In this document: positions 27,676 to 32,034 of the stretch, piece after piece
Layout: every line of letters starts with the position of its first letter
How positions within the stretch are numbered: the stretch's first letter is position 1
NCBI GenBank assembly: GCA_003151115.1
Contig: PLWS01000002.1
Location: 878,570 to 935,833 of the forward strand
Length of the DNA: 57,264 nt
Reading direction: 5' to 3'
From: Vulcanimicrobiota bacterium
GTDB lineage: Bacteria > Vulcanimicrobiota > Vulcanimicrobiia > Vulcanimicrobiales > Vulcanimicrobiaceae
Notes under the pieces: generated by a model
The model's input: only the letters and a program-made list of their open reading frames with translations
The model's database searches: none
Told to the model about the DNA's origin: nothing
Made by a program: the position numbers and the translations under genes

Positions 27676-30309
27676 ATGATTAGACCCGTTTCGGTTGATG
27701 GCCGCGTTGACACCGGCGGGATTTTCGAACCGATTGTTCGCGGCCGAATAGTTGAACGTGTTGCTGCTGCCGCCTTTCAGCCAATCGTCTTAATCGTTGC
27801 TCCCGCCGGTTACGGAAAATCCGTTGCGGTTAGCCAGTACCTTAACAGTCTGGATGCTGCGAAGGTACGCTACGACGTTCGTTCGGAAAATCGCAATTTG
27901 TTAGGTTTCTTGCGCGGTTTTGCGGAAGCGCTTTCTAGCGTAGCTCCAGACGCGCGCAAGACATTATCTGGCGCATACGAAAAAAACCGGTCTTCCGGAA
28001 CGCCCGGCTCCGACTTAGCGATGTGGATGTACGCGCACATCAAGACGTACACGGGAATCATCGCGATCGATGATTTTCATCTAACCGAGAACGACCCTGA
28101 GATAGCGAGATTCCTTGTTTCGCTGATAGAACGAACTTTGGGTCGTGCGCGCTGGATCGTCGCATCACGATCGACGACGAATCTTCCAGTAGGATCGTGG
28201 CTTGCTTATGGCCACATGGATCTGACAGTAGACGAGCAAGACCTGCGCTTTACGGTGGATGAGGCTCGTCAGGCGGCGAGATCAGCGCGCGTTTCCGTTC
28301 GGGATGAAGAGCTTAGCGAAATTCTGTCAATGACGGATGGCTGGCCGACAGCTTTGAGTTTTGCACTCCGAAGCTCGACTCGTTCGGTCGATCTAAGGAA
28401 TATCACAGCCACTACTCGCGAGATGATCTATCAATATCTTGCAGAGCAGGTCTATCATGCACTTGCTCCAGATGAGCGCGATCTGTTGCACTTGTCGTCA
28501 TACCTCGGTGAGATCAATGCCGATATTCTCAGGTGCGCAGGCTATGGCAAGGCTCGCGCGGCAATAGAATCACTACGTCAGCGTGTAGCATTTATATATC
28601 CAGATCGCCCGGGTACCTACAAGTGTCACGATCTTTTTAAGGATTTCTTGCAACATCAGCTGGAACTCGAGGGAGATCAGGCCGTCGAGGATACACGACT
28701 GCGGGCTGCGAGAGCACTGGAATTGGCTGGCCGACTGCCGGCCGCACTTACACTTTTTGCTCAAGCCTTTGCGCTCGCGGATGTTTTGCGTATTCTCACG
28801 AGTGATGGGCTCCGGTTAACGGATGAGGGCCATGCTGACGCGGTGGGTATTGCCCTTGAAAGTCTGCCCTCAGATATCCGTGCGACAAATCCAGTTGTTC
28901 TCGGGTTACGAGCCTTGGCGGCGGGGGATCTTGGCCGCTTCGATCGCGCCGAGTCATTGTTACAGCGAGCGCTTTCCAAAGAATGCGAGCAAACGCTTCG
29001 AGTTGAATTGTCGCTCCGTTTAGCGCTCATACTTATTAATCAAATGCGGGACGTAGCCGAAATGCTCGAGCCCCTTGATAGCAATGCGCTACCCGCGAAT
29101 CTTCAGGGTGAAATCGCGAGTCTCTTAGCAATCACATACGCGTACGCTGGGCGTTCCAACGAAGCAATGCGAGCGGTCGCAAGGGCGAGACGCGCTCTCT
29201 TGCACATTGAGGGCAATCATGATCGGGCGAAGGTATTGCAACGTATCGGTGTGGCTGGTCTGCGGCTCGGCCTCCCGCTGGAAGAAACGATGGATGCCCA
29301 AAACCGCGCCGCCTCGCTCGCTTCGGAAGAAGGCATGTATGGCTTAGCGGGACGAGCGTTCGTTGCTCTCGCCAGCATCGCACTTTTGTACGAGGACGAT
29401 GCTGCGAAGGAAGTGTGGTATTCGCAGCAGGCCGCAAACGCGGCTATGAAGGCCGGCGATTTGTTTAATCTGCAAACCGCATTGCTGCATCTTTTGAACG
29501 TTGAAGGCAGGCGCGGAAACGTTGAGCGCATCAAGGCGTTAGAAAAGCAGATTGCGCCTATCTCAACATCCGATTCGCGAAGAATGTCGTACGTAATCCC
29601 GATACGTGCTTATGTAGCCGCGTGGGAGGGCCGCTTCGATGACGCGCATCGTTTGATGGCAACTATCGCTGGGAGCGATCGTTTTTTTGCCTACGACCGC
29701 GCGGTAAACGCCGCTTCCGATGCCTTGTTCGTTTTGGCACTGGGCCAGCGTGATCTCTCGCTGGCCATACTGAGCACGGTCTTCGCCGAGATTGAAAAGA
29801 CGGACTCGAAGCTGCTTTATGCTAAGCGGCAGGTAGCAATCGCGAAGCTTCTCGTTGCTCTGGTTGAGAGCCTGGCAGGCCGAAGGACATATGCTCAACG
29901 CGCCCTGCGAAAGATTCCAGAACATGGCGATGCGGTCATTACGTCTCTTAGGGACGCGGTGCTTTCCGTATTTAGGGCAATGCAAGAGCCAGCCCTTGAA
30001 CGAGAAATTGACGAATCTATCGATCGCCTCCAGGCAATCGGATATGGCGGAATAGGGCGGCTTGTAAAAAGCGTGTTCGATGCCTGCAAACCCGCGCGTT
30101 TGGAAGCTAATGAATTAGGACTCACACTTGCGGAGAGCAAGGTGCTTCAAGCGCTAGCGAGGGGTCATAGGCCGAAGGATATAGCTCGAGAGTCTGGGCG
30201 GAGCATATATACAGTCCAGGCGCATATTCAGAACATAATAAGGAAGCTGGGCTGCAGCGGGCGGAGCGAGGCCCTAAAGATTGCGCGGCTGCGTGGCCTA
30301 ATAGCCTAA
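27676..30309 (+). CDS. MalT-like STAND ATPase with C-terminal LuxR HTH, paralogue 2
   Basis: 877 residues. Clear paralogue of the preceding gene: shared PIVR-x-RI, Walker A APAGYGKS (42-49), GIIAIDDFH (about 126-134), SRST-x-NLPVGSWLAYG, YQYLAEQVY and YKCHDLFKDFL. Similarity is strong over the NTPase half and weaker over the TPR-like arm (about 340-800), the ligand-sensing part, suggesting different inducers. The LuxR HTH is at the end (LTLAESKVLQALARGHRPKD ... YTVQAHIQNIIRKLG, about 815-877). Codon use is less GC-rich than the core genes (28 of 60 bases in line 28081-28140 against 42 of 60 in an rpoC line). ATG start with AAGGG in a small hairpin. Followed by the 20-codon ORF and HD-GYP gene. 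Confidence 0.88.
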   Translation: MIRPVSVDGRVDTGGIFEPIVRGRIVERVAAAAFQPIVLIVAPAGYGKSVAVSQYLNSLDAAKVRYDVRSENRNLLGFLRGFAEALSSVAPDARKTLSGAYEKNRSSGTPGSDLAMWMYAHIKTYTGIIAIDDFHLTENDPEIARFLVSLIERTLGRARWIVASRSTTNLPVGSWLAYGHMDLTVDEQDLRFTVDEARQAARSARVSVRDEELSEILSMTDGWPTALSFALRSSTRSVDLRNITATTREMIYQYLAEQVYHALAPDERDLLHLSSYLGEINADILRCAGYGKARAAIESLRQRVAFIYPDRPGTYKCHDLFKDFLQHQLELEGDQAVEDTRLRAARALELAGRLPAALTLFAQAFALADVLRILTSDGLRLTDEGHADAVGIALESLPSDIRATNPVVLGLRALAAGDLGRFDRAESLLQRALSKECEQTLRVELSLRLALILINQMRDVAEMLEPLDSNALPANLQGEIASLLAITYAYAGRSNEAMRAVARARRALLHIEGNHDRAKVLQRIGVAGLRLGLPLEETMDAQNRAASLASEEGMYGLAGRAFVALASIALLYEDDAAKEVWYSQQAANAAMKAGDLFNLQTALLHLLNVEGRRGNVERIKALEKQIAPISTSDSRRMSYVIPIRAYVAAWEGRFDDAHRLMATIAGSDRFFAYDRAVNAASDALFVLALGQRDLSLAILSTVFAEIEKTDSKLLYAKRQVAIAKLLVALVESLAGRRTYAQRALRKIPEHGDAVITSLRDAVLSVFRAMQEPALEREIDESIDRLQAIGYGGIGRLVKSVFDACKPARLEANELGLTLAESKVLQALARGHRPKDIARESGRSIYTVQAHIQNIIRKLGCSGRSEALKIARLRGLIA

Positions 30310-30378
30310 CCAGATCATTGATTCAGCAAAACTGCCTAGTGAATTTTAACTAGAGACGGGCTGAGCCAAGAGCCGCTA

Positions 30379-30410
30379 TCCTCAAACTGGCACACATCGC
30401 TACTTGAGGA
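30379..30410 (+). promoter_or_regulatory. 7-bp stem that overlaps a perfect Shine-Dalgarno
   Basis: TCCTCAA (30379-30385) can pair with TTGAGGA (30404-30410) across an 18-base loop. The right arm covers five of the seven bases of the Shine-Dalgarno GAGGAGG (30406-30412) that serves the ATG at 30420. This suggests that access to the ribosome site may be controlled by RNA folding, temperature or upstream translation. The pairing is seen directly; regulation is inferred. Confidence 0.4.
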
Positions 30411-30419
30411 GGTTGTTTT

Positions 30420-30482
30420 ATGGACTTGCTTATTGATCTAGCTATCATCGTCGGCATCGACATCCCGCCGTCTATAGGCTAA
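30420..30482 (+). CDS. 20-residue ORF with perfect Shine-Dalgarno: peptide, leader, or frameshifted N-terminus of the HD-GYP gene
   Basis: ATG 30420 to TAA 30480-30482 encodes MDLLIDLAIIVGIDIPPSIG, a mostly hydrophobic peptide with Asp residues and a Pro-Pro near the end. GAGGAGG (30406-30412) lies seven bases before the ATG and is one of the strongest ribosome sites in the window. Three readings fit. (1) A secreted or internal signal peptide or a leader peptide next to STAND-LuxR receptors. (2) A translation-coupling ORF for HD-GYP. (3) The real start of the HD-GYP protein, separated from it by a +1 frame change near 30478-30482, since the HD-GYP frame is open from 30478 without any ATG, GTG or TTG before 30604. 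Confidence 0.45.
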   Translation: MDLLIDLAIIVGIDIPPSIG

Positions 30483-30603
30483 TCACACGAAAGAAGAATC
30501 CATTCCGTTTAGGCTGCGTGGCGGTAGCCAAACCATCATCTCTCTCGGCGCAGATCTCTCTCGGTTAACAAAAGCCGTAATTGAGCAGCTGCAAGATCCG
30601 ATT

Positions 30604-31485
30604 TTGGTCGGAGACCCCGGTCTGGAGAGATCGATTGAAGCGCTGCTCGATCGCCTTTGCATGTCTGTTAATCTTTCGAAACCTGTCGGCCTGAGCAATT
30701 GGGCGGTACGGGAGGGGAGCCGGCTCGGCACCGCGCGCGCGAGCGAACTCGCGTCCGCGGCAGTGCACGTCGTGGCGGGCGAAGCGGAACGGTTCGAGCT
30801 CGACCACGCGCGCCTGTTGGCGTTCATGGAAGTATTGCGGCTGGAAATCGGATCGGCGTTAGCCTCTTACAAAAGCGGAGCGCCAGAAGAATCGCCGGAG
30901 TATTCCGAAAGCACCCGCGCGTTATTGGCGATGCTGGGCGAGCGGGACGCTGCCACCTGTTGCCATTCGCGCGCAACCGGAGAATGGGCTAGGCGCCTGT
31001 GCGCCGCAATGGCGATCCCGGCCGAGAGCGCGGAATTGATAAAGTTGTGCGCGGTCTTGCACGATATCGGAAAAATCTCGACGCCCGAAGCCATTCTTTT
31101 CAAACGCGGCGTGTTCACCGAAGAAGAGTGGGTGATTATGCGCGACCATTCGGCCGCCGGGCAGCGCGTGCTGGATCAAATACCAACCCTCGCAAAATGC
31201 GCGCTGATCGTAAGAGCCCATCACGAGCGCTGGGACGGAGCGGGCTATCCCGACGGCTTGGCCGGTGAAAATATTCCGTTTGAAGCGCGCGTCGTCGCGG
31301 TCGCGGACGCGTTCCACGCGATGATCAGTGAGCGCCCATACCGCAAGGCCATCCCGCCGCGCCAAGCCCTGGAGATTTTGGAAGCGGGCCGCGGCACGCA
31401 GTGGGACGCTGCCGTAGTCGACGCGATGCTTGGCTTGTTCCGCAAGTCGCGCGAGCGCTCCGAGGTCCGGGCTTCGACCGCATAG
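30604..31485 (+). CDS. HD-GYP cyclic-di-GMP phosphodiesterase
   Basis: Hydrolyses the second messenger cyclic di-GMP by family function. Seen (numbered from TTG 30604): His121 in the first ligand segment (CCHSRATGEW), catalytic HD at 153-154 (CAVLHDIGK), His182 (RDHSAAG), His206-His207 and the family hallmark GYP at 214-216 (HHERWDGAGYPDG), then VVAVADAFHAM. N-terminal 110 residues are helical with no known sensor. The TTG is only the first usable start: the same frame continues upstream to 30478 with protein-like sequence (IPFRLRGGSQTIISLGADLS) but no start codon. The N-terminus probably begins at 30420 through a frame change, or at a rare start codon. A strong terminator follows at 31513. 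Confidence 0.88.
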   Translation: MVGDPGLERSIEALLDRLCMSVNLSKPVGLSNWAVREGSRLGTARASELASAAVHVVAGEAERFELDHARLLAFMEVLRLEIGSALASYKSGAPEESPEYSESTRALLAMLGERDAATCCHSRATGEWARRLCAAMAIPAESAELIKLCAVLHDIGKISTPEAILFKRGVFTEEEWVIMRDHSAAGQRVLDQIPTLAKCALIVRAHHERWDGAGYPDGLAGENIPFEARVVAVADAFHAMISERPYRKAIPPRQALEILEAGRGTQWDAAVVDAMLGLFRKSRERSEVRASTA

Positions 31486-31512
31486 GGTATCCCGCTATTC
31501 CGGGTAGTGGGC

Positions 31513-31544
31513 AGGGCGCACCAAACGGTGCGCCCTCAATTTTT
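31513..31544 (+). terminator. Rho-independent terminator after the HD-GYP gene
   Basis: AGGGCGCACC (31513-31522), loop AAAC, GGTGCGCCCT (31527-31536), then CAATTTTT. The stem is a perfect 10 bp with a downstream T-run, 28 bases after the HD-GYP stop. It marks the end of the STAND-LuxR/peptide/HD-GYP transcript. Confidence 0.9.
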
Positions 31545-31584
31545 GTGCCAGCCAGTTGGCACTCTGAGGCGGCATACTCCAACC

Positions 31585-32034
31585 ATGGAGTACATGATTG
31601 GCGCGGGCGCGATTCTCGAAACGGGTGAGGCAGCCAAAGTCACCGCGGCGATGCTCCACGCCAGAGTAGACCCCATGCTGGCTCGCTCGGTCAAGGCCGC
31701 GGCCGTGGATTTCGACGGGAACTCCCCGGAGGCGCTGCGTCGGCTCCTCGTCCTGGTCCCGGGCTGGAATGCGGGGCGGTTCCGCTCACGCGTCAGCCAA
31801 CCGCTCATCGAGCGTGGAACCTGCTCGCTAGCGGATGTACTCTCCATGCTTGCCGGCGCCGCGGAGGCTGCGGAAGTTCACCTATTTGCGCACTGGCTGC
31901 CCGACGATATGACCTACCAGGCGCTTGCTCAGCGCGGGATCGAGCTGGTGGTTCACCCACTCGAAGCCATCGAATCAGCCGCGGTCGTAGCCGGGCAGCG
32001 GCACACCCGGTGGAAGGCGGCGCGAGCGGCTTAG
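31585..32034 (+). CDS. hypothetical protein
   Basis: 149 residues from ATG 31585. An upstream in-frame start at 31507 was rejected because it precedes the terminator hairpin. No signal peptide or membrane helix. The N-terminal half has an Ala-rich helix (AAKVTAAMLHARVDPMLARS) and an Arg-rich helix (SPEALRRLLVLVPGW). The C-terminal half alternates strand and helix: AEVHLFAHWLPDDMTYQALA, then GIELVVHPLEAIESAAVVAG. This could be a small Rossmann-like or nucleotide-binding alpha/beta domain, but no signature motif is seen. It precedes the response regulator by 41 bases on the same strand, so it may be the first gene of that operon. Ribosome site weak (GAGG 16 bases upstream). Confidence 0.55.
   Translation: MEYMIGAGAILETGEAAKVTAAMLHARVDPMLARSVKAAAVDFDGNSPEALRRLLVLVPGWNAGRFRSRVSQPLIERGTCSLADVLSMLAGAAEAAEVHLFAHWLPDDMTYQALAQRGIELVVHPLEAIESAAVVAGQRHTRWKAARAA

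Follow-up and report, generated by a model that had tools for sequence, protein, structure and literature searches.

Our findings support a model where a 20-codon open reading frame (ORF) from Candidatus Eremiobacterota (WPS-2), the phylum of the window (the whole stretch of 57,264 nucleotides of DNA that was analysed), codes for the precursor of a short signalling peptide, with the STAND-LuxR protein encoded upstream of it serving as a dedicated cytoplasmic receptor. We regard this reading as probable; binding, export and signalling are inferred. As judged by comparing genomes, the ORF is a real, protein-coding and conserved gene under purifying selection, and across one family of bacteria its presence is linked to that of the receptor gene. 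An earlier note on this DNA had suggested that receptor, peptide and output enzyme resemble a peptide-sensing circuit. Three lines of sequence evidence point to such a circuit and lend the suggestion support: the ORF accompanies the receptor across the family, some precursors bear repeats, and the operator is matched to the receptor. Export and receptor binding remain unproved. The features concerned are collected in table 1.

Table 1. Features of the proposed receptor-peptide locus (window coordinates).
Feature	Position	Strand	Basis and remarks
First STAND-LuxR protein of the tandem pair, 893 aa	24927..27608	+	Pfam AAA_22 + GerE
Receptor 2, inferred cognate receptor	27676..30309	+	Pfam, AlphaFold2 model, peptide-linked orthologs
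18-bp palindrome CTAGTGAATTTTAACTAG, inferred operator of receptor 2 (no binding data)	30336..30353	.	Pairing, HTH co-variation
-10-like element TATCCT	30377..30382	+	23 nt after the palindrome; read from intergenic sequences
Shine-Dalgarno sequence GAGGAGG	30406..30412	+	Sequence; 7 nt upstream of the peptide ATG
Peptide precursor gene, 20 aa, MDLLIDLAIIVGIDIPPSIG	30420..30482	+	Conserved, 62 species / 27 genera
Inferred mature signal, C-terminal octapeptide IDIPPSIG	30456..30479	+	Exact N-terminal cut unknown
HD-GYP phosphodiesterase, usual output gene	30514..31485	+	HD_5 1.5e-41; the CTG start at 30514 is a guess

The hydrophobic ORF and its perfect Shine-Dalgarno (SD) sequence stand as the earlier note had described them, with the peptide ATG 110 nt past the stop of the second of two large STAND-LuxR genes. 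The short ORFs with conserved residues that the note had proposed to look for at the same position in relatives do exist: a receptor-linked tiny ORF occurs in at least 62 species of 27 genera, all within one family, usually 80-135 nt after the stop of a STAND-LuxR receptor gene, mostly 20-45 codons long and in most relatives with a GGAG/GGAGG-type SD ahead of it. The usual traits are a strong SD, a hydrophobic N-terminus, almost no Lys or Arg, and a Pro-rich C-terminus (e.g. IPPSIG, VPPMGG, TPPDPF, and YPPTVG; further C-termini at the ORF position are VPPAPIG, IPPTPMGG, SPPAGVG, DLPGPSVG, and FPPTGG). The position behind the receptor is kept across the family while the peptide sequence diverges; peptides of the same genus, in the same place, read MDLVIALAIIVGIEIPPSIG, MDLIVALAIIVGIDIPPTVG, MDPIVLALAIALVVGSTVPPTIG, MYPIILALAIALVVGSTVPPSIG, and MDSLILDLELIFASTVPPTIG. 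The hydrophobic part is variable; the C-terminal unit, rich in Pro, is preserved and has been multiplied in some lineages. Scored automatically by strict criteria (an SD, a length of 18-50 aa, hydrophobicity, and the right spacing from the receptor), 36 of 49 receptor loci contain such an ORF; dinucleotide shuffles gave 0.05 on average and never more than 2, and the 13 loci of a paralogous receptor clade gave none. The rest of the 62 species, with a weaker SD, a longer or less hydrophobic ORF, or receptors of other clades, were read by eye. Lack of conservation of the 20 codons, which would have refuted the note, is not what we observe: conservation is at the protein level, Nei-Gojobori counts giving pN/pS values of 0.13-0.71, below 1 in 18 of 18 pairs. 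Of 149 genomes of the phylum, 75 encode close homologs of the receptor (E <= 1e-80), and every one of these belongs to the same family as the window; the genome to which the window belongs measures 2.56 Mb and is 98% complete.

The precursors themselves are informative. A Pro-Pro pair falls within the last nine residues in 48 of the 58 non-lipoprotein precursors, when 3.4 would be expected from shuffling the residues of each peptide. The G033 precursor (MYASRISSISVVPVGGAVSVVPVGGAMSVVPVGGA), which has no hydrophobic N-terminus, carries its C-terminal unit SVVPVGGA three times in tandem, the units differing pairwise at 6 of 24 nucleotides with no amino acid change; the repeated unit is the equivalent of the inferred mature segment IDIPPSIG. 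In four genera (G020, G036, G089, and G121) the peptide's place is taken by a small protein whose signal sequence is of the lipoprotein type; that of G036 (L088) contains tandem PFPVSI repeats with synonymous differences only, and that of G121 (L186/L221) tandem SAGAYPA repeats that run into an N-gap, so that their copy number is unknown. Multi-copy RRNPPA pheromone precursors likewise look like repeats of a short C-terminal unit (PMC9765709), and by this analogy repeats and lipoprotein precursors together are the anatomy of pheromone precursors. The same peptides could also be read as small membrane proteins that stay in the producer cell and tether, inhibit or activate the STAND receptor as a cis-acting cofactor. 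The hydrophobic stretch could indeed sit in the membrane, neither Lys nor Arg is found in 55 of the 58 non-lipoprotein precursors, the peptide is linked to the receptor and not to the HD-GYP gene, and MalT itself is restrained by partner proteins that inhibit it (PMC10427625). However, conservation falls on the Pro-rich unit at the C-terminus and not on the membrane stretch, the triple unit of G033 comes without a hydrophobic segment, the G036 and G121 repeats lie in lipoproteins, and a tether has no need of repeats; a cofactor that never leaves the cell is therefore possible but unlikely.

Which gene does the peptide go with? The earlier note had placed the ORF just before a c-di-GMP hydrolase. 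This stands insofar as a gene with HD/HD_5 domains comes next, which has the required HD...GK and HHExxDGxGYP motifs (HDIGK and HHERWDGAGYP) and so meets the motif criteria for an HD-GYP phosphodiesterase, its enzyme activity being only inferred; it does not stand for the mechanical start of that gene (TTG 30604), which is not conserved, homology beginning some 90 nt upstream. Where it begins, this genome offers no ATG, GTG or TTG (30478-30606), and translation may start at CTG (30514), at ATC/ATT, or by coupling to the peptide; in several other genera the gene opens with an ordinary ATG. In most relatives the HD-GYP gene lies directly 3' of the peptide. In seven species (six of g47, and G103) the peptide is retained without it and directly precedes a homolog of the gene at 31507-32034 and then a response regulator. 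In the same genus as the window, G003 lacks receptor 2, peptide and HD-GYP together. The peptide thus goes with the receptor and not with HD-GYP, which is a usual but not universal downstream gene, so that receptor and peptide form the core. The gene at 31507-32034 encodes a 175-aa protein without a Pfam match that is conserved ahead of the response regulator across the family.

These neighbourhoods also bear on whether the ORF is merely a regulatory leader (uORF), whose translation would control HD-GYP by attenuation or translational coupling while the peptide itself has no function. Cis coupling is conceivable, given that the ORF directly precedes HD-GYP in most species and that HD-GYP has no normal start codon in this genus; yet the ORF persists in the seven species without HD-GYP, its amino acid sequence is under selection, its frame and distance relative to HD-GYP vary, and HD-GYP has its own ATG in several other genera, which makes a leader very unlikely. 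An RNA leader or attenuator was ruled out separately, the leader showing no structure beyond that of shuffles (z -0.69) and no Rfam family. Fusion of the ORF to HD-GYP, named in advance as a refutation, was never seen, a stop codon always lying between the two; programmed frameshifting or readthrough joining them was ruled out as well, the relative frame differing between species (+1 in G000, +2 in G005, 0 in G006). Some toxins and bacteriocins are small hydrophobic peptides, and this general knowledge, together with the receptor-linked promoter, would allow an antimicrobial or toxin-like peptide under receptor control. Nevertheless, the precursors have almost no positive charge, in the examined loci no candidate immunity or transport gene separates the peptide from HD-GYP, and the repeats of a short unit at the C-terminus, like the constant company of a receptor that is a transcription factor, also speak against this account, which we find scarcely plausible. 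Finally, a chance ORF, or an HD-GYP N-terminus broken off by frameshift, which the G000 HD-GYP frame opening exactly at the peptide stop without ATG, GTG or TTG there might suggest, is refuted by conservation in 62 species, purifying selection, the shuffle controls, the stop codon always in between and the presence of the peptide where HD-GYP is absent.

By every feature tested, receptor 2 is a STAND-LuxR regulator. It combines in one chain a STAND NOD (residues ~16-406, with the P-loop APAGYGKS), a TPR superhelix (~437-790) and a C-terminal LuxR HTH (~816-870), and its orthologs carry the peptide gene. The note's two large STAND-LuxR receptors are borne out, both tandem proteins having an AAA/NOD domain and a C-terminal GerE (LuxR) domain. 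In the AlphaFold2 model of receptor 2 (pLDDT 87) the NOD matches that of MalT (8bob) with Z 35.1 over 382 residues and an rmsd of 2.7 (model versus PDB), and the model matches PH0952 (6mfv) with Z 24.7. For the TPR part (437-790) structure matches include LGN, Rap-Phr (Z ~19.5), NprR-NprX (Z 18.3), and MalT domain III (Z 16.9). TPR superhelices match many unrelated proteins, and the Rap/NprR matches are permissive and speak for compatibility only: the modelled fold is compatible with peptide binding of the RRNPPA type, itself only inferred. By sequence, receptor 2 matched neither the RRNPPA structures nor any Rgg structure, and no Rgg domain was found by Pfam.

Between receptor 2 and the peptide, about 75 nt ahead of the peptide start, lies a palindrome that occupies a constant place across relatives (e.g. 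CTACTTAAATTTAAGTAG, ATACCCAAATTTGGGTAG, and CTCGTCCTTTCGGACGAG in other species), 22-23 nt from the -10-like element in the species measured. The latter, TATCCT, is no strict match to the sigma-70 consensus. By analogy, the palindrome is inferred to be centred near -44 of the inferred transcription start, as for LuxR-type activators that overlap the -35 element. Its arms pair on average at 6.57 of 9 positions over 44 species, versus 5.24 in shuffles (the highest of 200 shuffle means being 5.57), although a few g47 species (G064, G067, and G072) show no clear palindrome. Thirteen species have a Lys after H-[IVL] in the receptor recognition helix, and 12 of these have a GGG operator arm, which occurs in 0 of the 31 species without this Lys. 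The counts were read by eye from the sequences, and the Fisher count ignores phylogeny; the link is nonetheless found in three distinct clades of receptors (g19, the one with lipoprotein precursors, and G025) and so is probably not one inherited event. The palindrome arms thus appear to evolve in step with the recognition helix, a relation partly confounded by phylogeny. An operator regulon search found a single copy in the window's own genome, and exact matches in relatives occur only at the peptide locus, bar two boxes in G015. These boxes (CTACTAAAnnTTTAGTAG; L223, L228) lie by promoter-like sequences, one of them before a BlaI/MecI-looking gene, and are probably operators for BlaI with no connection to the peptide operon.

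We propose that the precursor enters the envelope via its hydrophobic N-terminus, or as a lipoprotein, and that the C-terminal 6-9 residues (here about IDIPPSIG) would be released from it. The peptide may then re-enter through an oligopeptide permease, import being possible because the genome encodes ten SBP_bac_5 oligopeptide-binding proteins, and would bind the TPR arm of receptor 2. In MalT, the inducer binds the TPR-type sensor, the NOD opens and the protein multimerises (PMC4381067), and this activation is taken as the working model for receptor 2: peptide binding would open the ADP-bound NOD, and the receptor would multimerise with ATP and then bind the palindrome. The ATP-bound receptor would activate the peptide-HD-GYP operon at its one operator, more peptide giving positive feedback on the signal and more HD-GYP a drop in c-di-GMP by which the population might switch between sessile and motile states. 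The Rgg/SHP promoter arrangement suits positive feedback, and the arrangement seen here is similarly suited. Export, cleavage site, binding, direction of regulation and output are all inferred. Counted against the circuit are the absence of binding, export or expression data, the missing hydrophobic N-terminus of G033, and the g47 receptors without a peptide.

Known systems offer close parallels, and neither RRNPPA nor SHP/Rgg accommodates this one. In RRNPPA systems of Bacillota (Rap-Phr, NprR-NprX, PlcR-PapR, PrgX-cCF10, and AimR) the propeptide gene neighbours that of a cytoplasmic receptor with a TPR domain, the active pheromone is at the precursor C-terminus, and some precursors are multi-copy (PMC9765709, PMC10075063). 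Adjacency of propeptide and receptor genes is met here. The effector is not: RRNPPA receptors have an N-terminal HTH or a Rap-type effector without a STAND NOD, whereas here a STAND ATPase has its NOD N-terminal and its LuxR HTH (GerE) C-terminal, and the phylum is Eremiobacterota. SHP/Rgg of streptococci also has a very short hydrophobic precursor near the regulator gene (~20-25 aa), easily missed by gene finding (PMC9765709); Rgg, however, is a different protein family to which receptor 2 does not belong, and no repeats were found in Rgg and ComR precursors (PMC9765709), unlike those here. With MalT and other STAND/LAL regulators of the LuxR family the receptor shares NOD, TPR-type sensor and C-terminal LuxR HTH, but the inducer of MalT is maltotriose and the ligand proposed here a peptide. 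The circuit would work like RRNPP and SHP/Rgg but fails their membership in effector and domain order. In the literature searched, neither a peptide ligand for the STAND-LuxR class nor a peptide-signalling system in Eremiobacterota was described; subscription journals and preprints lay outside the search, and a prior description is not fully excluded. Failed memberships and the lack of a known peptide ligand for the class lead us to place the proposed system among peptide pheromones with TPR receptors, a known kind, but on a new chassis. We lean towards a separately evolved form of peptide communication, with the first STAND-ATPase (NOD-TPR-LuxR) pheromone receptors, the first cell-cell signalling in Eremiobacterota, species-specific peptide codes, precursors built as tandem repeats or lipoproteins, and an output through c-di-GMP hydrolysis. 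Peptide quorum sensing via cytoplasmic TPR receptors has been described as a Bacillota matter; if we are right, the same logic arose on another chassis, a STAND ATPase whose architecture relates it to MalT and to immune switches of the NLR type, and did so in a soil phylum of whose regulation almost nothing is known; a large class of orphan STAND-LuxR regulators would also gain a peptide ligand. Some 60 natural sets of receptor, peptide and operator make ligand specificity directly testable with cheap synthetic peptides.

Not every receptor has a peptide. Neither peptide nor HD-GYP lies directly behind four g47 receptors (G061, L076; G062, L067; G077, L162; G078, L158); some RRNPPA receptors also lack a peptide (PMC9765709, PMC10075063) and are described as eavesdroppers (PMC9765709), and by analogy these four are candidates for the same role. 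Nor does a peptide ORF follow the first receptor of the tandem pair, which is separated from receptor 2 by a 67-nt gap and is possibly a second sensor with another ligand. G003 retains an ortholog of this first receptor without receptor 2, and the recognition helices of the two tandem proteins differ (HTH RSVHTIRTLIQRAITKL versus RSIYTVQAHIQNIIRKL).
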